Part shown: in pieces, positions 1,208 through 40,276 of the stretch | Numbering within the stretch: position 1 is the first letter of the stretch | Layout: every line of letters begins with the position of its first letter | Source of the DNA: a virus | IMG/VR virus record: IMGVR_UViG_3300035073_000053 | Coordinates: 1-40,323 of that record | Reading direction: 5' to 3' (one strand) | Length of the DNA: 40,323 bases | The notes under the pieces: generated by a model | Seen by the model: the letters and a program-made list of their open reading frames with translations, nothing else | The model's database searches: none | Told to the model about the DNA's origin: nothing | Translations under genes and position numbers: made by a program

Positions 1208-4200
1208 TCAGAATGGCCGCGCGCTACGCCGCATGCCGAAGCTGGCGCCGAGCTCGCGATCGAGTTCGCCATTCGCCACCATCTTTTTGACCGCGCGCTT
1301 CAACTGGATTTCCAGGCTGACACCGCCATCGCGGCGCCGGGTCTCGCGCACTTCGGCCTCGCCCTGTGCGCCGACGAGCGTCACCTGCGTCTGCGGCATC
1401 TGGCCCGATCCGCCGGCCGGCCGCTCGCCATAGCTCTGCGGCGCCTGCGGCGTCTGCGGTGGGCCGAGATCGCGCTCCCGGCCGATATCCCGGAGCGACG
1501 GGAGCGTCATAGCGCCGCCTGGCGTCATCACGCCGCCCTCGGCGAACGCGAACGGTGTCGCGCCGGCGAGCCGGAGCGCCCTCTCCTCCGGAGAGCCGGG
1601 CCCGGTCAGAACGGCGGGGATTCCGCGCCCGCCGGGAAGCTCGACATGCGCGCCGCCGGCGGGATCGAGCCGGACATGAATCCCGGCCGGGTCGACCATC
1701 GGGATAAAGGCTTCCGGATGACGGCCTTCGCCGAAGAGAGCGATCTGCGGCGAGGTCGCGACTCCGCCGGTCGAATTGCGATGCAATGGCAGCTCGCCCC
1801 CGCTCGTCATCACGCCGCCATCAGCGAAACTGAAGAGCGAGCCGATGCTCGAGAGCAGCCCACCGCCGCCTCCTGAACTCGTGGCCATCGCCGCCGGCAT
1901 GTCCGGGCCCATTCCGCCCTGCGCAACGGTCGGAAGACTGCCGCCCCCGAACAGCGAGGAAATCGCGCCGAGCAACCCACCGCCGCCCGCGCCGGCGCTG
2001 TTTGGAGCGGCTCCAGGAACGCCCCCGGCGACACCGCCATTGACGTTGACGACGCCCGCATTGACGTCCATCTGCGCTGTCGTCCGGTCCTTGCCGAGCC
2101 CGAGGAGATCGCCGAGGAATCCTCCATTTGTCGAGCCCGTCTGCCCGAGCAAAGATTCGGTGAACCTGCTGGTCTGCGCATCGATCAGCCGGTCCATCGC
2201 GGACGACATCGACTGTTCGAGCGCGGCGCCGACATCCTGCCTATGCGCGATCGCTCTGATCCCGCCGCTGAGCGTGTCGTTGACCGTCCCCCGCGCGAGG
2301 TCCAAATTCTCCCGGAGCCTGCGCTGCTCTTCCTGCCGTTTCGTCAAAGCGGCGTAGGCCTGCGCGGTGTCGTGGATCTTGCCGCGCAGCTCGTCGTACA
2401 TCCTGGCGCCATCGGCTCCGAAGCGGTTCACGAGCTCCTGCTTGGTCGCGCCCTGCTGTTGCGCCTGCGTGAGCAGCTCGACCTCTTTCGTCATCTCCGC
2501 CGTCTTCTCGGCGGAGAGCCCGTAGACTCCGTTCTGAGCGTCGAGCAGAACGCGCTGGCGCTCGATCGATTGGTTCTCCTTCTGGAGCGCGTCCGTGAAC
2601 GACGAGATGTATTCGCTCATCCGCAAATCGTTGACGCCGACACCAATATCTCTCGCCGATGTGGAGTCGATCACCGATAGGCTGCCGCCGGGTCCACTGT
2701 AGCCATTGAGGAAGCGCGAGACGTAGGAGGCGCCCGTCGTTCCGAGGTTGTCATTCGCCGCGGCGCCCTGCGCCAGCGGGCGGCCGGTGAACCAGACGGA
2801 CGCAGCGTCCGAGACGCTCCCGTAGCGCGCGACCGACGCGCCGAACTGCCGATCGAAGACCGCATCCTGCGCCGTAGGATCGGCAAGGAATTGCTGCGGC
2901 GTCAGCTCGCGCCCGAGCGCCGCCTGCGTCCACGTCGGGATATTGGCCCCCATGACTTGATAGCGTCCATAGCCGCGATCTCCGCTCGCTGTGCGCGGGC
3001 CGATCGCGGAATAATCGCCCGACCCACGACTCTCGATCGCCGCGATGGCGTCGCGCGCCCTCGAAAGATCGAGCCCGCCGGCGACGAATGCCGGGACGGG
3101 CGCCGCGCGCTCCGGAGAGATGCGCGCGATCACCGCCTCGAGGACCGACGCGAAGCGCGTCACGGCATTGCCGGCGCGATCGAACCCGAGCATGAGCGGC
3201 GTAAGCCGGACATCTTCGGCGCCTGGCACCAAACGCTGGCGCATTTCCCGCTCTTGGATATCGATCCGCCGCATCGCGCGCTCGAACGGCGTTTCGCCCT
3301 GCAGGACATACAGTTGGTCCCTGGCGCTCTTCGCGAACCGGGAAGCCTCCGCATTCGCCGAAGCGACGGCTTCGTTCAGCGCGTTCTGCGCGGCTGTCGC
3401 GGCGGCGAGCACGCTATGCGACCGCTCGATCTCGGCGAGGAACGCGCGCTGCGCCGTGACGGCGGCCATGAGCGAGAAGCTCTGCCGGCTCTGCGCATCG
3501 ATCTCGCGCAGCCGGAGATCGGATTCCAGATTGATCCTATCGACGACGGAGACGCTCGCGAGCGCCATGGCGACATTGAGCCGGGAGATTGCCTCCGTCA
3601 CATCGTTTGCGCGATCCCCGAGCGCCGCGAGCCCGTCCTTGCTGTCGGTCAGCTTGCGAATGGCGTCCAGGGAGTCGCGCAGCCCGCGCAGCTGCGCCTC
3701 CTGCGGCATGGCCGAGTCGATCGCTGAAGTCGCGCTCTGCGAAAGGCGATCGAGCCGCTCCTGCTGGCGCAGCGCCTCGATGCGCCCGGCATCCTGCGGC
3801 GCGCTCTGTTCCCGCAGCCTGCCGTAGCGGATATCGAGCTCGGCCAAGCCGGCCTGCAGCGTCGAGAGTCCGCGCAGCTGCGCCCGGTCATGAGCCTCGC
3901 GCGCCATGTCGTCGAGACGGCGGGCGGATTCGGCGAGCGCCGCATTGCGGGCGCCTTCCGCGGCGATCGCCGCCAGCGTCTCGTCATGGGTCTGCCGAAG
4001 CGTCGCAACGCGCGCCTGCTCCGTCGCGATGCTCGCTCGCTGTTCGAACGAATAGGCGCCGATTGAGCGCACGGCGAGTTCGCTGTCCTGCCGCATCCTC
4101 TCCGCCGGCGTCTGGAAATTGGCGAGCGCCGTGGAGATCTGCGCGACGGCAGTCTTCGCGGCGGCCGCTCGCTCCCCGAGCGCGGCGAGACCATCCGCGG

Positions 4201-6091
4201 TCTCGGTCAGCGGCTTCAGAACCGCGAGCTGGCGCTCTGTCATCCGGCGCTGGACATCGTCCGGGGAAAGCTGATCGATGAGCGGGCCGGCGAGTTCCGA
4301 GCGGCGATTGAGGTCGATCCGATCGCGCTCCCGCTGTGCCGGCGTGATCTCCTGTGAGAGGCCGATCCGGCGCTCATAATCGGACAGCGAGCCCGCGCCC
4401 GGCGCCTGGAGAGCGGCCTGCGCCTGGCGCGGCAACTCGACAGTGCGGAACGTCGGAAGCAAAGCATCGAGCCCGGCGCCGAGGCCATCGAGCGCCTTGC
4501 CCGGAAGCGACGTGAAAGCCTCCCATCCGCGCGCGAGAAGCCCGGTCGAATCCTTTGCCTTTCGGACCTCTTCGTCGAAGAGGCGCGTCTTCATCGCTGC
4601 GGCTTCCGAAAATCGCCCCATTTGCTCCAGCGCGGTCACCGTCTCCTTCGTCGCCAGCGACACCGGGCCGAATCGGCGCTCGAATGCGCCGAGCCCCTGG
4701 TCCCCTACGATCTTCACGATTTCCGCATAGGCGTCGGAAAGCTCGAGCCCGAACGCATGGGAAAAGCGCGGCGCGTCGCTGAGAAGCGTCGGGATATTCT
4801 CGACTCCGATTCCGGCCTGGGCGATTTGTGCCGCGCCGGAGACGGCCTGTCCGCGCGACATCGAGCCGGAGCGCGCCGTCGCATCGGCGATCGCGGAAAG
4901 CTGTCCAGCCGACGCGCCAGCGGCGCGGCCGACGCCATTGAGCGCGCGCTCCAGCTCGGCCTGCTGATCGCGGAATCGCATCACGGCGACGCCTGCAGTC
5001 CCGACGACGGCGGCGAGAATGGTGAGGGGATGCGTCGCGACGCGCAGCGCGGTCGAGCCGACCTCGGCGATAGCCGCCTTGGCGCCGACGCTCGACGATG
5101 CGAGAGCGTCATAGATCTGCCCGGCCTGAGATGTCGCGATCTGAGGGAGCGACGCTCCCATGAACCCCATGGTCAGCACGTCCTGTAGCTGCCTCGACAG
5201 GTTCGTCCATTCGTGGCGCGCGAGCCCGACGGATTTCGCGTTGTCGTTCACGCCTTTCGTCACGCGCTCCAGCGGATCGGCTGTCGTGACGCGGGCGCCG
5301 ACGATCTGCGTCACCGCGTCCTCTGTTGCGGATGTGGTCGCGCCAGCCGCCCCCGCCGCAACGGAGAAGCGCCCCATCGCGTCGCGCTGGCGCTCGACGC
5401 TGCGCGTCACGTCATCGATCGCAGCGGCTTCGGCCGCCGCCTGCCGGGTCACAAGCGCGGCCGCGGCGTCGAATGTCCCCGTCGCCGCCATGATATCGTT
5501 CCCGGCCATCTCATAACCGGCGCCGACCGCCATCGCCGCAGATTCCGCGCGCCCGGCCGCAGCGGAGAGCCGATCGAACGCGACGGTCGCCGCGCCGGCC
5601 CGCGCCGTCGCCAGAGAGACGCCTGCCGCGGCGTCGCCGAGCGCGCCAGATGAAGCGGCCGCGACGGGGTGGGTCATGACGGCGCTATCCGCGGCTCGCA
5701 CGGCAGCGGCGTCACGGCCGACGCCGGCCCCGGCGCCGACATGCCTGTCCAGCCGCATCAGCGCGTCGGTCGCGGCGGCTGCGGAATCCTCCACTTCCGT
5801 CGCCATCTTGTCCGCGGCGCTCCCGGCAGCAACAGCGCCGAGCGCGGCGTCCTTCCCGACTTTCGCGAAGGCGCCGCTCATCTTCGCGGCGTTGTCCTCG
5901 AGCTTCTTCGCCGCCGCGTCGACTCCGCCGCCGATGGTCTTGAACGCGCCCGTCGTTCCGAGCGCCATGCGAGTCGCCTGATCTTCGAACTTGCGCGCGC
6001 TCGCCGCGAGCTTGTCGAGGGTGAGCGCGCCCTTCTCGGCCTGAGAGGAATCGATGGCGAGGCCGAGCGTCGCGACATCAGGCGTTGTCAC
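1208..6091 (-). CDS. Tail tape measure protein with embedded lytic transglycosylase domain
   Basis: A 1,627-aa protein starting at GTG 6091, overlapping the end of the GT chaperone frame. The N-terminal third is Ala-rich and helical; a hydrophobic stretch (PLTILAAVVGTAGVAVM) lies near residues 355-372. Long coiled-coil-like Arg/Glu/Gln-rich regions follow. Around residues 1010-1140 is a lysozyme-like/SLT segment: the putative catalytic Glu1020 (IESRG), then GYGRYQVMG and ASVWFTGRP. The C terminus has Gly-rich runs and the tape-measure signature FADGGVMT...ALFGEGRHPEAFIPM. It sets tail length and probably opens the host murein during DNA entry. At roughly 0.15 nm per residue it implies a tail of up to about 240 nm, an inference. 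Confidence 0.95.
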   Translation of the reverse strand: MTTPDVATLGLAIDSSQAEKGALTLDKLAASARKFEDQATRMALGTTGAFKTIGGGVDAAAKKLEDNAAKMSGAFAKVGKDAALGAVAAGSAADKMATEVEDSAAAATDALMRLDRHVGAGAGVGRDAAAVRAADSAVMTHPVAAASSGALGDAAAGVSLATARAGAATVAFDRLSAAAGRAESAAMAVGAGYEMAGNDIMAATGTFDAAAALVTRQAAAEAAAIDDVTRSVERQRDAMGRFSVAAGAAGATTSATEDAVTQIVGARVTTADPLERVTKGVNDNAKSVGLARHEWTNLSRQLQDVLTMGFMGASLPQIATSQAGQIYDALASSSVGAKAAIAEVGSTALRVATHPLTILAAVVGTAGVAVMRFRDQQAELERALNGVGRAAGASAGQLSAIADATARSGSMSRGQAVSGAAQIAQAGIGVENIPTLLSDAPRFSHAFGLELSDAYAEIVKIVGDQGLGAFERRFGPVSLATKETVTALEQMGRFSEAAAMKTRLFDEEVRKAKDSTGLLARGWEAFTSLPGKALDGLGAGLDALLPTFRTVELPRQAQAALQAPGAGSLSDYERRIGLSQEITPAQRERDRIDLNRRSELAGPLIDQLSPDDVQRRMTERQLAVLKPLTETADGLAALGERAAAAKTAVAQISTALANFQTPAERMRQDSELAVRSIGAYSFEQRASIATEQARVATLRQTHDETLAAIAAEGARNAALAESARRLDDMAREAHDRAQLRGLSTLQAGLAELDIRYGRLREQSAPQDAGRIEALRQQERLDRLSQSATSAIDSAMPQEAQLRGLRDSLDAIRKLTDSKDGLAALGDRANDVTEAISRLNVAMALASVSVVDRINLESDLRLREIDAQSRQSFSLMAAVTAQRAFLAEIERSHSVLAAATAAQNALNEAVASANAEASRFAKSARDQLYVLQGETPFERAMRRIDIQEREMRQRLVPGAEDVRLTPLMLGFDRAGNAVTRFASVLEAVIARISPERAAPVPAFVAGGLDLSRARDAIAAIESRGSGDYSAIGPRTASGDRGYGRYQVMGANIPTWTQAALGRELTPQQFLADPTAQDAVFDRQFGASVARYGSVSDAASVWFTGRPLAQGAAANDNLGTTGASYVSRFLNGYSGPGGSLSVIDSTSARDIGVGVNDLRMSEYISSFTDALQKENQSIERQRVLLDAQNGVYGLSAEKTAEMTKEVELLTQAQQQGATKQELVNRFGADGARMYDELRGKIHDTAQAYAALTKRQEEQRRLRENLDLARGTVNDTLSGGIRAIAHRQDVGAALEQSMSSAMDRLIDAQTSRFTESLLGQTGSTNGGFLGDLLGLGKDRTTAQMDVNAGVVNVNGGVAGGVPGAAPNSAGAGGGGLLGAISSLFGGGSLPTVAQGGMGPDMPAAMATSSGGGGGLLSSIGSLFSFADGGVMTSGGELPLHRNSTGGVATSPQIALFGEGRHPEAFIPMVDPAGIHVRLDPAGGAHVELPGGRGIPAVLTGPGSPEERALRLAGATPFAFAEGGVMTPGGAMTLPSLRDIGRERDLGPPQTPQAPQSYGERPAGGSGQMPQTQVTLVGAQGEAEVRETRRRDGGVSLEIQLKRAVKKMVANGELDRELGASFGMRRSARPF

Positions 6092-33481: not shown

Positions 33482-33846
33482 TGCGCCCCTCCCGCATCCC
33501 GCACGAAATATCCACCGTTCGCGCGCTCGAGCTTCGCGCCGACCATCGCGCAAACGAACAAGACCGCGATCCGGTTCTGCGCCTGAGATTGCGTCGCCAG
33601 TTCCGGCCCGCCGTCCTCATCGTCGCCGTAGCAAAGCTCGATCATCTCGGCGTTCTGGACGACCCGGCCGGGCTCCGCGAAGAGCGCCACGATCATTCTT
33701 CGCTCCGCCGATCGCACCCGGCAGACATGCCCCCGGAACCCGACCCAGAGCATCCGCGTCGAGATCACCAGCGCGTCTTTGCGATCCTCGGAGAGACTCC
33801 GCACGCGGCTCTCCACAAAGTCCCCGATGACGAGCGACGGCAGCAT
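33478..33846 (-). CDS. Winged-helix DNA-binding protein (OmpR-type fold)
   Basis: A 122-aa protein from ATG 33846 (TGATG overlap). The C-terminal two thirds, AERRMIVALFAEPGRVVQNAEMIELCYGDDEDGGPELATQSQAQNRIAVLFVCAMVGAKLERANGGYFVRDAG, match the response-regulator effector domain: a recognition region and the final 'I......GGY.V' wing. There is no receiver domain, so it is a stand-alone regulator within the methyltransferase block. Confidence 0.7.
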   Translation of the reverse strand: MLPSLVIGDFVESRVRSLSEDRKDALVISTRMLWVGFRGHVCRVRSAERRMIVALFAEPGRVVQNAEMIELCYGDDEDGGPELATQSQAQNRIAVLFVCAMVGAKLERANGGYFVRDAGGAQ

Positions 33847-34400
33847 CAGCGCGGCTCCTGGAACATCACGAGCTCGCGTGGCTGCACGCGCGCATGTGTC
33901 GCGCAGGCCCAATCCCAAAGCGCAATTGCGTCCGCTGCATCGGTGTCGCAGAAATCGCGATCGACATAGCCGAGCAGACGGCAGCGATCGAGAACGAGCT
34001 GTTTCGGGTTCTCCGGCCGCGCCCGCCCGAGGAAGTGCTTGCGCACCGTCTGGACGTTCCCATCGACGCATGTCACGCCGTACGGACCGCAGATCGTCTC
34101 GACTCCGCCGACAAGGCGGTGGAGCAGCGAGATCGTCTCGGGCGTCGAGCGGAAGGACGGCTTCTCGCCATCCTTCTTCCAGTCGATCATGGCGCCGATG
34201 TTCACCGGCGCTTCGATGACAACGAGATCGGGGCGCTCGAACGCGAATTGATCCCGCAGCCATATTCCGAGCTTCCGGCAGGCGCGAGAGGAAGGATCGT
34301 GCGGGCTCTTCAGCCGCTTGCTTCCGACGCGCGGCTTTTCCCCGGCGCGGCCGATGCAAAATCCCATTTTCGTCGCGAGATCGAGCGCCATGATCAGCAT
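33846..34400 (-). CDS. RuvC-like Holliday junction resolvase
   Basis: A 184-aa protein from ATG 34400. RNase H-fold catalytic acids are visible: Asp7 (MALDLATKMGFCIG), Glu63 (VVIEAPV), and the C-terminal Asp cluster DTDAADAIALWDWA (Asp152, Asp154, Asp157). FLGRARPENPKQLVLDRCRLLGY precedes it, as in phage RuvC-like resolvases. It would resolve branched DNA before packaging or during recombination. Confidence 0.87.
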   Translation of the reverse strand: MLIMALDLATKMGFCIGRAGEKPRVGSKRLKSPHDPSSRACRKLGIWLRDQFAFERPDLVVIEAPVNIGAMIDWKKDGEKPSFRSTPETISLLHRLVGGVETICGPYGVTCVDGNVQTVRKHFLGRARPENPKQLVLDRCRLLGYVDRDFCDTDAADAIALWDWACATHARVQPRELVMFQEPR

Positions 34401-34655: not shown

Positions 34656-35372
34656 TCAGACTCGACCGGCGGAGCGCCCTGCCTCCCACGCGCTCACGGC
34701 GACAGGCGCGATCGGCCTCACCAATTCGAGCATCGCCTCGGCATAGACGCGGATCTCGTATTGCGCGTGCGCATCGGCGCGGAGATCGAAGAACCCGAAC
34801 AGGTTCTTGAGATCGACCTTCGCGAACATGTGCGAATAGGTGGCGACGGGAAGGACGGAGCGCGCTAGCTCACGCGGCCAACCCGCGTCCAGCAACTCGC
34901 GATAGGTTTCGAACGCTCTCTCCATTGCGACGCGGGCCTGCCCACACTCGATCTTCCGCACGCGGCAGGCTTCGTCGTCCCATTGTTCGATGAGGCGGCC
35001 TTGCTTGTTGTTCGGAGATTGCGCGCCGATCTGCGAAGGGTCCGGAACATAGAATTCTTCCGGCAGCTCGCGATAGCGCGCGCTCAACTCATTGAACGAC
35101 CATACCCTATGCCGCATCCACTGCCGGAATACGAAGATCGGCGCCTTGACCTCGAATTGCAGCTCGACCGCCTCGAAAGGCGTCGTGTGCTTATGCTTCC
35201 ACAAATAGCGGATCAGCCGCGCGTCAGAGCCTTCGTCTTCCCCGGCGCGCCAAGCCGCATCGAAACTAACCCTCGCCGCGCGCACGATCGAGAGGTCAGA
35301 GCCCATCGAATCGACCAAGCGCACGAATCCATGGTCGAGAACGCAGATCTTTCGATCACCATTCGGCTGCAC
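34656..35372 (-). CDS. thyX: Flavin-dependent thymidylate synthase
   Basis: A 238-aa protein from ATG 35372. The ThyX motif FRQWMRHRVWSFNELSARY (residues 82-100, RHR at 87-89) is complete. The N-terminal RAARVSFDAAW, RYLWKHKHTTPFEAVELQFEVKAPIFV and C-terminal FGFFDLRADAHAQYEIRVYAEAMLELVRPIAPVAV are also typical. It makes dTMP from dUMP using methylenetetrahydrofolate, FAD and NADPH, supplying nucleotides for phage replication. Confidence 0.96.
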   Translation of the reverse strand: MQPNGDRKICVLDHGFVRLVDSMGSDLSIVRAARVSFDAAWRAGEDEGSDARLIRYLWKHKHTTPFEAVELQFEVKAPIFVFRQWMRHRVWSFNELSARYRELPEEFYVPDPSQIGAQSPNNKQGRLIEQWDDEACRVRKIECGQARVAMERAFETYRELLDAGWPRELARSVLPVATYSHMFAKVDLKNLFGFFDLRADAHAQYEIRVYAEAMLELVRPIAPVAVSAWEAGRSAGRV

Positions 35373-38071: not shown

Positions 38072-38673
38072 TGATGCGCTCCGATCACGACGGCGAAAGC
38101 CAGCAGCGCGAGAATTGCGAGATGCGCGAGAACGATCACGCTCCGCGGCGACCGGACGCCATTGCGAAAACACCCGGTCGCCGCCACCATCGCGGTTGCC
38201 ACACCCACGAGGGAGTTCAGGGAATGTCGAAGCTCACGAAAAACACGACGCGCCGCCTCGATCCGATCGCCGTGGAGCTCGCCGGCACGCGGCTCTTGCT
38301 GCGCGCGCTCATCGCCTATCTGCTCGTCGACGACCCCGACGAGGCTGACCATGCGGTCGCTGCCTTGGTCGCCAAGGTCGACAGAATGTCCGCGTCGTCC
38401 GTCATCATCGGCGACCCCAGCGGGGAGGCCAGAAAGGCCATCCGCGATAGCGCCGTGGTGCTGATCGCCGATTTGGGGCAGGCCAGAGGCCCGGTCCAAT
38501 GAGGTGAGGGGGACGTCCGTCAAAAAAAGCTGAAACGGCTTCTCCAATGCGACCGGCGCCCACCGCAGGCGACCGAGCAAGTACCGGGCGCTTGGGCGCT
38601 GTTTCGGCGCGGCGCTCGCTGCGGCGATCGCCACAGGCGCGACAAGGATCGAGCGGCGGGAGAGGTCGGTCAT
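38068..38673 (-). CDS. Composite open frame: Tat-like N terminus and TM C terminus, middle doubtful
   Basis: The 201-codon frame starts at ATG 38673, coupled to the GIY-YIG gene stop (ATGA). The N terminus MTDLSRRSILVAPVAIAAAS with twin Arg looks like a Tat signal, and the last 40 codons (from ATG 38190: MVAATGCFRNGVRSP, then SVIVLAHLAILALLAFAVVIGA) form a TM helix. The middle, however, is antisense to a well-formed plus-strand gene (38224-38502), and a minus-strand terminator-like hairpin lies at 38522-38543. I suspect two short minus genes (a signal-bearing fragment and a 40-aa membrane peptide) rather than one protein. Confidence 0.35.
   Translation of the reverse strand: MTDLSRRSILVAPVAIAAASAAPKQRPSARYLLGRLRWAPVALEKPFQLFLTDVPLTSLDRASGLPQIGDQHHGAIADGLSGLPAGVADDDGRRGHSVDLGDQGSDRMVSLVGVVDEQIGDERAQQEPRAGELHGDRIEAARRVFRELRHSLNSLVGVATAMVAATGCFRNGVRSPRSVIVLAHLAILALLAFAVVIGAHQ
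38224..38502 (+). CDS. Hypothetical helical protein, plus strand
   Basis: A 92-aa protein from ATG 38224, preceded by GAGGGAG at about eight bases: MSKLTKNTTRRLDPIAVELAGTRLLLRALIAYLLVDDPDEADHAVAALVAKVDRMSASSVIIGDPSGEARKAIRDSAVVLIADLGQARGPVQ. Codon third positions are strongly G/C-biased, as in neighbouring genes. It is an amphipathic, mostly helical protein with a hydrophobic core helix. Being opposite to its neighbours near the immunity region, it may be expressed in the lysogen. Confidence 0.6.
   Translation: MSKLTKNTTRRLDPIAVELAGTRLLLRALIAYLLVDDPDEADHAVAALVAKVDRMSASSVIIGDPSGEARKAIRDSAVVLIADLGQARGPVQ
38522..38543 (-). terminator. Possible minus-strand rho-independent terminator
   Basis: On the minus strand AGAAGC (38543-38538), a 7-base loop and GCTTTT (38530-38525) form a 6-bp stem with one G-U pair, running into a T tract of seven. 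It lies after the signal-like N terminus of the frame starting at 38673. The stem is short, so it is only moderately convincing. Confidence 0.4.
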
Positions 38674-39203
38674 TGCGCAAGCGCTCCCTCATTGGCGGCG
38701 ATCGGCGCCGTCGGAGCGTCCACGGCGAGCAGGAAATCGTTCGGCGTGACGGCGCCGTCGGTCACAACCGCTATCCTCGCCATAATGGCGGGCTGCGGCA
38801 GGCGCGTCCCGCCGATGTAGCGGGTCACAGACACCTCGGAGACGCCGATCGCCTTCGCGAAATCGGCGCGGGACATGTCTTTCTCGGCAAGGAACTGATC
38901 GAGTTTCAACCCGTTACTTGCGCGATTGGCGCAGATCGCGATCTTCTCTGGACGATAGGCTGGCAAATGCTCGAGAAACAGCGACACCACGCGGCCCTTC
39001 GCGAACCACTCGCCGCGAATGCGCTCGCTTGCGCAGAGCCTATGGATTTGCCGTTCGTGGTCTTTGCCGCCGCGCGCAAAGCCGATGAGGCGATGGGTTC
39101 CGGGCGAGCCAACATTCAACTCCGCGAGGCGCCGGAGTGGGTCTTTTGCCCACCCGATTTTCACGGAGTCTCCGCTCTCGATCGCATAGACGTAGCCGGT
39201 CAT
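38670..39203 (-). CDS. GIY-YIG nuclease domain fused to an XRE-type HTH
   Basis: A 177-aa protein from ATG 39203 (ATGA overlap with the Cro-like gene). Residues 3-75 are a T5orf172/MUG113-type GIY-YIG domain: GYVYAI, KIGWAKDPLRRL (conserved Arg), DHERQIHRLCA (His), GEWF (Glu65). Residues 97-160 are an HTH_3-type domain: GLKLDQFLAEKDMSRADFAKAIGVSEVSVTRYIGGTRLPQP, as in Cro/CI-type regulators. It sits where lambda cII would be. It may be an early regulator whose GIY-YIG half binds DNA or cleaves it. Confidence 0.85.
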   Translation of the reverse strand: MTGYVYAIESGDSVKIGWAKDPLRRLAELNVGSPGTHRLIGFARGGKDHERQIHRLCASERIRGEWFAKGRVVSLFLEHLPAYRPEKIAICANRASNGLKLDQFLAEKDMSRADFAKAIGVSEVSVTRYIGGTRLPQPAIMARIAVVTDGAVTPNDFLLAVDAPTAPIAANEGALAQ

Positions 39204-39448
39204 TGGGCGGCCTCGCTCTGGACGACGGGGCGCGCGACGCCAGCGGGCCATTCGGCGCCATCCGGCCAGTTCGCCGAGAACCAGCGGAGCGCGTCGTTGA
39301 AACGACGGAGCGTGATCCCTTTCCCGGATCGGATCGCCGCGAGGCGTTTCGAGTCGGCGAAGACGCGGGAGCTGACGGTCGTCTCCGTCAGCTCTTTGGC
39401 GGATGCGTAGATGTCGGCGAGCCGCACGAGGTCGTGTTCGGTGTGCAT
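39200..39448 (-). CDS. Cro-like early regulator
   Basis: An 82-aa protein from ATG 39448: MHTEHDLVRLADIYASAKELTETTVSSRVFADSKRLAAIRSGKGITLRRFNDALRWFSANWPDGAEWPAGVARPVVQSEAAQ. The 'L..LA..Y.....L...TVSSRVF.D.KRL..I..G..IT..R...AL.WFS..WP' order is that of small HTH proteins placed opposite the repressor in alphaproteobacterial prophages. It is the first gene leftward from the immunity promoter, hence a Cro equivalent. Leaderless transcription is likely (see promoter). Confidence 0.78.
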   Translation of the reverse strand: MHTEHDLVRLADIYASAKELTETTVSSRVFADSKRLAAIRSGKGITLRRFNDALRWFSANWPDGAEWPAGVARPVVQSEAAQ

Positions 39449-39486
39449 ACCGCAATAATGGGTATAGCTACCGGCGTGTCAAGGTA
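39447..39486. promoter_or_regulatory. Operator-like inverted repeats of the immunity region
   Basis: ATACC-N9-GGTAT (39447-39465) and TACC-N10-GGTA (39469-39486) are two inverted repeats with the same half-site, back to back between the Cro-like and repressor genes. A third half-site pair (GGT-N6-TACC, about 39518-39529) lies inside the repressor start. The first site covers the -10 box and start codon of the Cro-like gene, as expected if the repressor silences it. Confidence 0.65.
39455..39482 (-). promoter_or_regulatory. Early leftward promoter
   Basis: On the minus strand a perfect -35 TTGACA (39482-39477), a 16-base spacer and a -10-like CATTAT (39460-39455). The transcript would begin at or beside the A of the Cro-like ATG (39448), leaving no room for a ribosome site. 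Both operator repeats overlap it. Confidence 0.65.
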
Positions 39487-39508
39487 TTTTTAGAAGGGGC
39501 GCGCGCCA

Positions 39509-40276
39509 ATGCCGCCGGTTAAAATACCATTCATGTGGTCAGCCAAGGACTTACTCGCGAGGATCGAAGCCCGAACGAAGTCGCTCGGGCTATCGGACGC
39601 GGACGTCGGCCGGATCGCCGAAAAGCCTGACCTCATGAAAAACATCCGCACTGCGGCGCGGCAGAACAGGACCTATGAGCCTCGGGCTGGCACAATGAAG
39701 GCTCTGGCACGGGCGTTGAGGGTCCAAGAGAGTTGGCTGACCGCAATCGACGACGAGGCGCGACAACCTCCAGACGAGGTTGCTATTTCGTCTGTCGACG
39801 ATGAGATCGGCCGCTCGGCTTCCGCGAACATTCTCGAGATCGATGTGCGAGCCGGCGCCGGTGGCGGCGGAATCCGAATTGACGACGTGGTCGTCTATGA
39901 TGACGCCGGCAACTCCTATGCGGCGGAGAACGTCGCGGGGGAATGGACTCTCCCGGCCGCAGTGCTGTCCGGGGTCCTGAAATCCACGCCCAAGCACATC
40001 AAGGTCTTCGAGATCATGGGCGACTCGATGGAACCACGGCTTTTCGAAGGGGACCGTGTGTTCGTCGACACCCGCTACACTGCCCCGCATCCTGAAGGGA
40101 TTTTCGTCCTTTGGGATGGCTATTCGATCGTGGTCAAGGGGCTGCAAATAGTTCGGGGAACCGATCCGCTTCGGGTGACGATCATTTCTGAGAACCGGCG
40201 CTATCCGCCTTACGAGACGACGATCGACGAGATCAAGATCATCGGCCGATACGCCGGCCGATTCACGACGAGATGA
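39509..40276 (+). CDS. CI-like repressor with S24/LexA peptidase domain
   Basis: A 255-aa protein from ATG 39509 (GAAGGGG nine bases upstream); ATG 39533 is less likely. Residues about 10-80 are the HTH region (SAKDLLARIEARTKSLGLSDADVGRIAEKPDLMKNIRTAAR, MKALARALRVQESWL). The C-terminal half is an S24 peptidase: FEIMGDSMEPRLFEGDRVFVDT with nucleophile Ser173, and IVVKGLQI with Lys210. A possible Ala-Gly cleavage point is in RAGAGGGG (residues 114-121). It maintains lysogeny and would self-cleave on DNA damage. Confidence 0.92.
   Translation: MPPVKIPFMWSAKDLLARIEARTKSLGLSDADVGRIAEKPDLMKNIRTAARQNRTYEPRAGTMKALARALRVQESWLTAIDDEARQPPDEVAISSVDDEIGRSASANILEIDVRAGAGGGGIRIDDVVVYDDAGNSYAAENVAGEWTLPAAVLSGVLKSTPKHIKVFEIMGDSMEPRLFEGDRVFVDTRYTAPHPEGIFVLWDGYSIVVKGLQIVRGTDPLRVTIISENRRYPPYETTIDEIKIIGRYAGRFTTR

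Follow-up and report, generated by a model that had tools for sequence, protein, structure and literature searches.

Three systems described in the literature are among the closest to the gene analyzed here. The origin-directed nuclease Odn (Gp88) of ICP1, which joins a T5orf172 domain to a RepA_N domain, acts against satellite origins; it is aimed by a domain resembling the replication initiator of its target, and its activity is abolished by the E180A mutation (PMC8263062). I-TevI has the same affinity for its operator and its homing site, and cleaves the operator ~100-fold less well (PMC2988022). The T5orf172 homing endonucleases are a major phage family located at the boundaries of genetic exchange, and 200 of 229 carry Zn-finger modules (PMC10448857). 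In the window, by which we mean the whole 40,323-nt stretch of viral DNA that was analyzed (IMG/VR record IMGVR_UViG_3300035073_000053), a nuclease domain of this type is fused to a Cro/CI-type HTH. The fusion gene and its parts are as follows.

38670..39203, minus strand: GIY-YIG-HTH fusion gene P0001, 177 aa, with its ATG at 39203-39201
39000..39197, minus strand: GIY-YIG (MUG113/T5orf172) domain, residues 3-68, from Pfam and the predicted fold
39129..39131, minus strand: codon of Arg25, the presumed catalytic Arg, invariant in 87 sequences
39009..39011, minus strand: codon of Glu65 (GEWF motif), the presumed metal-binding catalytic Glu
38910..38960, minus strand: linker, residues 82-98, predicted to be disordered (pLDDT <50 at residues 82-96)
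38727..38909, minus strand: Cro/CI-type HTH, residues 99-159, ending in TDGAVTPNDFLL, whose kin are standalone Cro-like proteins

The presence of both domains in a single frame, which the preliminary description had proposed, is borne out by Pfam scores above the curated cut-offs. In the N-terminal part, MUG113 matches residues 14-67 (score 32.1 against a cut-off of 22.3, E = 1.7e-7) and T5orf172 matches residues 3-68 (score 26 against 20, E = 1.3e-5), and the order of strands and helices in the AlphaFold model (mean pLDDT of 84 for the protein) is GIY-YIG-like. HTH matches crowded the fold search, which hardly tested the GIY-YIG part structurally, so that this assignment rests on Pfam and the predicted secondary structure; a PDB sequence search with P0001 returned nothing significant. 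The signature residues Tyr6, Gly17, Arg25, His54 and Glu65 are all present, in agreement with the earlier remark that the nuclease residues (Arg25, His54 and Glu65, numbered from the ATG at 39203) look intact. The seven fused forms that were scored all have Tyr6, Gly17, Arg25, Glu50 and Glu65, His54 is nearly invariant in them, and residue 65 is Glu throughout the fused, coupled and other homologues, although this conservation, including that of Glu65, was in part preselected because the search pattern contained GEWF. The second Tyr of "YIG" is replaced by Lys15, as it is in 71 of 72 other sequences, and this is normal for the subfamily. P0001 may cleave DNA in a metal-dependent manner.

In the C-terminal part, HTH_3 (26.7 against a cut-off of 23) and HTH_26 (26.5 against 22) both match across residues 100-147. 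AlphaFold predicts a five-helix HTH, which aligns with P22 c2 (Z 8.9, rmsd 2.2, 60 residues), the N-terminal domain of YdaS (Z 8.2) and 434 Cro (Z 7.3); both the fold and the Pfam matches are those of Cro/CI (XRE) HTH regulators. Homologous HTHs are found in the Cro-like proteins ending in TDGAVTPNDF (such as those of L004, L007 and L018), up to the 60% identity seen with the L004 protein, and RHph_Y25 EVC10_051, which ends in TKGKVTADDL, is a diverged member of this group. These relatives are standalone, lack a nuclease and are mostly encoded by the first gene opposite CI, whereas the HTH of P0001 is fused. The linker contains one Cys, and no Pfam match to a Zn-finger linker or to NUMOD-type binding modules was found in P0001. 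Separately, a defense-system identity of P0001 was rejected, as PADLOC gave weak matches to the HTH part and no model match that covered the protein.

The immunity region around the fusion gene contains the following features.

39200..39203, minus strand: ATGA, the 4-nt overlap between the stop of P0002 and the start of the fusion gene
39200..39448, minus strand: P0002, 82 aa, first gene opposite CI (cro position), matching phrog_7669 (E = 5e-25)
39455..39482, minus strand: sigma70-like promoter TTGACA-16-CATTAT (1 found, 0.2 expected)
39448..39528, no strand assigned: operator-like array with TACC at 39448, GGTA-N4-TACC at 39461-39472, GGTA at 39483 and TACC at 39525
39509..40276, plus strand: divergent CI-like repressor with an S24 domain, 255 aa

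The gene had been delimited as 38670-39455, minus strand. This span is a mechanical TTG ORF of 261 aa, whose codons 1-84 run out of frame across P0002. Since the Glu65 numbering fits the ATG at 39203, the earlier reader had the right protein and the wrong left boundary, and the true start is this ATG. The ATGA overlap suggests, from the sequence, that P0002 and the fusion gene are translationally coupled. The fusion gene is the second gene leftward from the promoter-like site, as had been stated, with P0002 as the first. Its "cII position" therefore stands as a placement and falls as an identity: the Phage_CII Pfam model gave no match to the fusion protein at E ≤ 1. Nor is the fusion gene the first gene divergent from CI, the place of a phage Cro, which P0002 holds. 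P0002 has a small helical predicted fold whose top matches are HTH proteins (Z under 6), and in other alphaproteobacterial phages its homologues likewise hold the first position opposite CI.

The sigma70-like promoter would drive P0002 and the fusion gene, with a probable start point at ~39448 that would leave the P0002 mRNA nearly leaderless. This predicted cro-side start point thus nearly coincides with the P0002 start codon, which an operator half-site overlaps (window 39446-39482). Of the 20 GGTAT/ATACC words in the window, 4 are packed into 82 bp of the operator-like array, and the GGTA-N4-TACC of this array is the single copy in the window (0.01 expected). A 70.8-kb contig that bears an identical region (6.65 kb, no mismatch) encodes a tyrosine integrase, so the phage is temperate. 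On this contig, from L003, the integrase gene is directly followed by another gene of the GIY-YIG (T5orf172) type, the second in this phage (G001:C1:70201-70413), and the same pairing of integrase and GIY-YIG genes occurs in Sphingosinithalassobacter portus (L155:3962-4339) and at L139:5241-5744. Genes for a RuvC-like resolvase and a ThyX thymidylate synthase (window 33846-34400 and 34656-35372) lie downstream in the same leftward operon.

GIY-YIG genes recur at this position in other phages. Scans seeded with the GIY-YIG part alone, and for that reason unbiased for HTHs, gave 80 loci, to which further scans added more; of two genome-collection scans, the first, with the N-terminal 117 aa, recovered no relative, and the second recovered standalone GIY-YIG genes only. 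Fusions with a C-terminal HTH are present in at least six other phages (L077, L122, L161, L079, L151 and L194), and two further ones with weaker HTH support (L227 and L132) bring the total to eight. In all eight, a short first gene directly precedes the fusion gene and overlaps it by 0-4 nt, and a divergent repressor-like gene stands on the opposite side at the inspected fusion loci. The first gene is usually of the HTH type, the calls in L079, L113, L126, L132 and the second L161 pair having been made by eye or on weak scores, with almost nothing from Pfam. Unfused GIY-YIG genes take a similar place: the gene that precedes them is cro-like in L028 and the isolated Rhizobium phage RHph_I1_23, and is another small gene, often HTH-like, in L085, L104 and L113. 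In RHph_I1_23, the GIY-YIG gene EVC28_053 (184 aa) overlaps the cro-like EVC28_052 by 4 nt, as at the window locus; unlike P0001, its product has no fused HTH by Pfam. One short viral contig (L161) carries two GIY-YIG genes (3269-3715 and 4715-5284), each overlapping an upstream regulator-like gene by 4 nt. On the GIY-YIG tree, in which few columns are resolved, the HTH-linked genes require 8 changes, whereas 500 shuffles gave a mean of 14 and none clustered the genes as tightly. A single clade of fused or coupled GIY-YIG proteins was rejected, as at least five of the 8 label changes are forced by well-supported branches.

The fused HTH does not follow the immunity type of the phage that carries it. 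First, the window and L077 share their immunity region, with identities of 37% for the CI N-terminus, 48% for P0002 and 49% for the GIY-YIG part and with GGTA-N4-TACC in both promoters, and differ in the family of the fused HTH, which is of the HTH_3 (XRE) type in the window and of the YdaS/P22_Cro type in L077. Second, the reverse holds for L122 and L194, whose fused proteins are 57% identical across both domains, while their CI proteins give no significant match, nor do their Cro proteins, which are of different types. By these sequence comparisons, the fused HTH and the immunity specificity of the phage that carries it are uncoupled in both directions. Third, L059 and L055 have P0002 and the GGTA-N4-TACC operator type with no fusion in second position, and L059 additionally has a CI homologous to that of the window. 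Fourth, CCA-N3-TGG is enriched in the promoters of the standalone Cro relatives (20 in 4.3 kb, 1.4 expected; 11 of 28 loci) and has no copy in the window's promoter. The link of this motif to the HTH relatives is correlative, and the recognition helix of the window HTH differs; because the recognition-helix residues vary among the relatives, its recognition by P0001 would be a guess. Taken together, these comparisons and the absence of CCA-N3-TGG make the fused HTH seem unmatched to the phage's own operators.

Some further observations concern these motifs. Self-avoidance through depletion of CCA-N3-TGG was rejected (4 in the window, 5.4 expected). CCATAATGG (window 38780-38788) lies inside the 13-bp perfect palindrome CGCCATAATGGCG, within the HTH coding sequence of the fused gene, and may be there by chance, with 4 such cores in the window and 5.4 expected. 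L077 has a second GGTA-N4-TACC pair past the CI gene (L077:2037-2078), which looks like a further operator region. In Thiobacimonas phage vB_ThpS-P1 and Pelagibaca phage vB_PeaS-P1 (L068 and L073), three GGTA-N4-TACC each lie within ~170 bp upstream of the P0002 homologue, which suggests a three-operator switch.

The explanation that we favor, with a probability of roughly 0.4, is that P0001 is a directed nuclease acting on other elements; in it we infer the nuclease activity, the binding specificity and the identity of the target, whereas the domain architecture, the retained active-site residues, the recurrence at this locus and the mismatch of the fused HTH with the phage's own immunity type are observed. 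The gene would belong to the early lytic operon and be expressed, through coupling to the first gene, from the promoter on the cro side. Its product would be a small, modular nuclease whose catalytic GIY-YIG domain is brought to DNA by a C-terminal HTH of the Cro type that can be exchanged. The HTH would most likely steer the cutting or nicking towards sites that resemble operators in heteroimmune phages, prophages or satellites carrying the cognate Cro-type operator, and the mode of working would be that of Odn from ICP1, which is guided by a target-like DNA-binding domain. A narrower version, possible but doubtful, is an operator-directed nuclease whose heteroimmune Cro reader would bring the GIY-YIG domain to the immunity region of competitors or resident prophages early in infection, the reader being swapped as rivals change. 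Several points count against a directed nuclease: no phage with the exact cognate operator turned up, the domain order of Odn is the reverse, and a comparison of P0001 with 385 sampled alphaproteobacterial genomes gave single-domain matches and zero full fusions, so that a large part in competition is not evident. A mosaic exchange of regulators, without a role for the nuclease, could likewise account for the swapping of HTHs.

A free-standing homing endonuclease is a tentative alternative that we consider improbable, though not by far. Such an enzyme would cut immunity regions that lack its gene, and repair would copy the gene, often with neighbours, into the break; the fixed place behind the first gene would be the homing site and the HTH the specificity module. 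The standing of T5orf172 nucleases as a major homing family (PMC10448857), the occurrence of one fused protein behind unrelated Cro genes in L122 and L194, the five or more well-supported label changes on the tree and the related region of L059 without the gene are all consistent with homing. However, the insertion sites behind these unrelated Cro genes have, by eye, no obvious common recognition sequence beyond the start-stop overlap, the Zn-finger domains prevalent among the T5orf172 homing enzymes are missing from P0001 by Pfam, and a fusion to a Cro-type HTH is not among the architectures described in the survey of that family (PMC10448857). The directed-nuclease and homing explanations are not fully separate, as an enzyme that cuts the immunity region of a rival would at the same time favor the replacement of that region.

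It is unlikely that P0001 is a second regulator (Cro2 or CII-like) whose HTH represses or activates phage promoters, with a GIY-YIG domain that is inactive at the operator or serves dimerization, much as I-TevI represses without efficient cutting. The location in the immunity operon, the Cro/CI-like HTH and the behavior of I-TevI, which has the same domain order, at its operator (PMC2988022) would agree with such a role, but the fused HTH varies independently of the CI and operators of its own phage, the active-site residues are retained, and the place of Cro is already taken by P0002. Finally, the preliminary description suggested a lysis-lysogeny switch in which the regulator can nick its own operators, around 39440-39490. 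This is very improbable despite the intact nuclease residues and the adjoining operator array, because the GGTA-N4-TACC type is common to relatives with no fusion in second position (L059 and L055) or with another HTH family (L077), the fused proteins of L122 and L194 are homologous although their CI do not match and their Cro are of different types, the CCA-N3-TGG signature of the HTH relatives is missing from the promoter, and cleavage of its own genome would be costly. What survives of that proposal is a nuclease aimed at DNA, which is also our best reading; its own switch as the target is not supported.

The nuclease family, the modular binding domains and the HTH type are each already known separately. 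In the open-licence literature searched, we found no description of their combination with Cro/YdaS-type readers, of repeated fusion and coupling in the immunity region or of a CI-independent exchange of the HTH. If the directed-nuclease explanation is true, DNA-aimed phage nucleases would extend from the conflict between lytic phages and satellites to temperate phages competing over immunity regions, and the fusions would form a natural series of GIY-YIG enzymes whose Cro-type readers are exchangeable, a resource for deciphering operator specificity and for studying the causes of the strong mosaicism of immunity regions.

Compared with the known systems, P0001 resembles Odn in that a T5orf172 GIY-YIG domain with a conserved catalytic Glu is joined to a binding domain related to that of another element, here the L004 Cro-like protein (60%), and in the modular exchange of this domain. 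The two differ in domain order, as the RepA_N-type binding domain of Odn is N-terminal and the Cro/YdaS-type HTH of P0001 is C-terminal, and in setting, as Odn hits satellite origins whereas the P0001 gene sits behind cro in a temperate phage, with a presumed target. With I-TevI, P0001 shares an N-terminal GIY-YIG domain, a linker and a C-terminal binding domain with an HTH, and I-TevI is a precedent for one protein that cuts one site and represses another (PMC2988022); P0001 differs in having no intron shown, a short linker without a Zn-finger and an HTH of the Cro/CI type. The phage T5orf172 homing endonucleases have the nuclease family and the modular binding domains in common with P0001, but theirs are mostly CapR, DUF723 and DUF4397 Zn-fingers, and no such enzyme is described there from an immunity region with a Cro-type HTH (PMC10448857), the setting in which P0001 is found.
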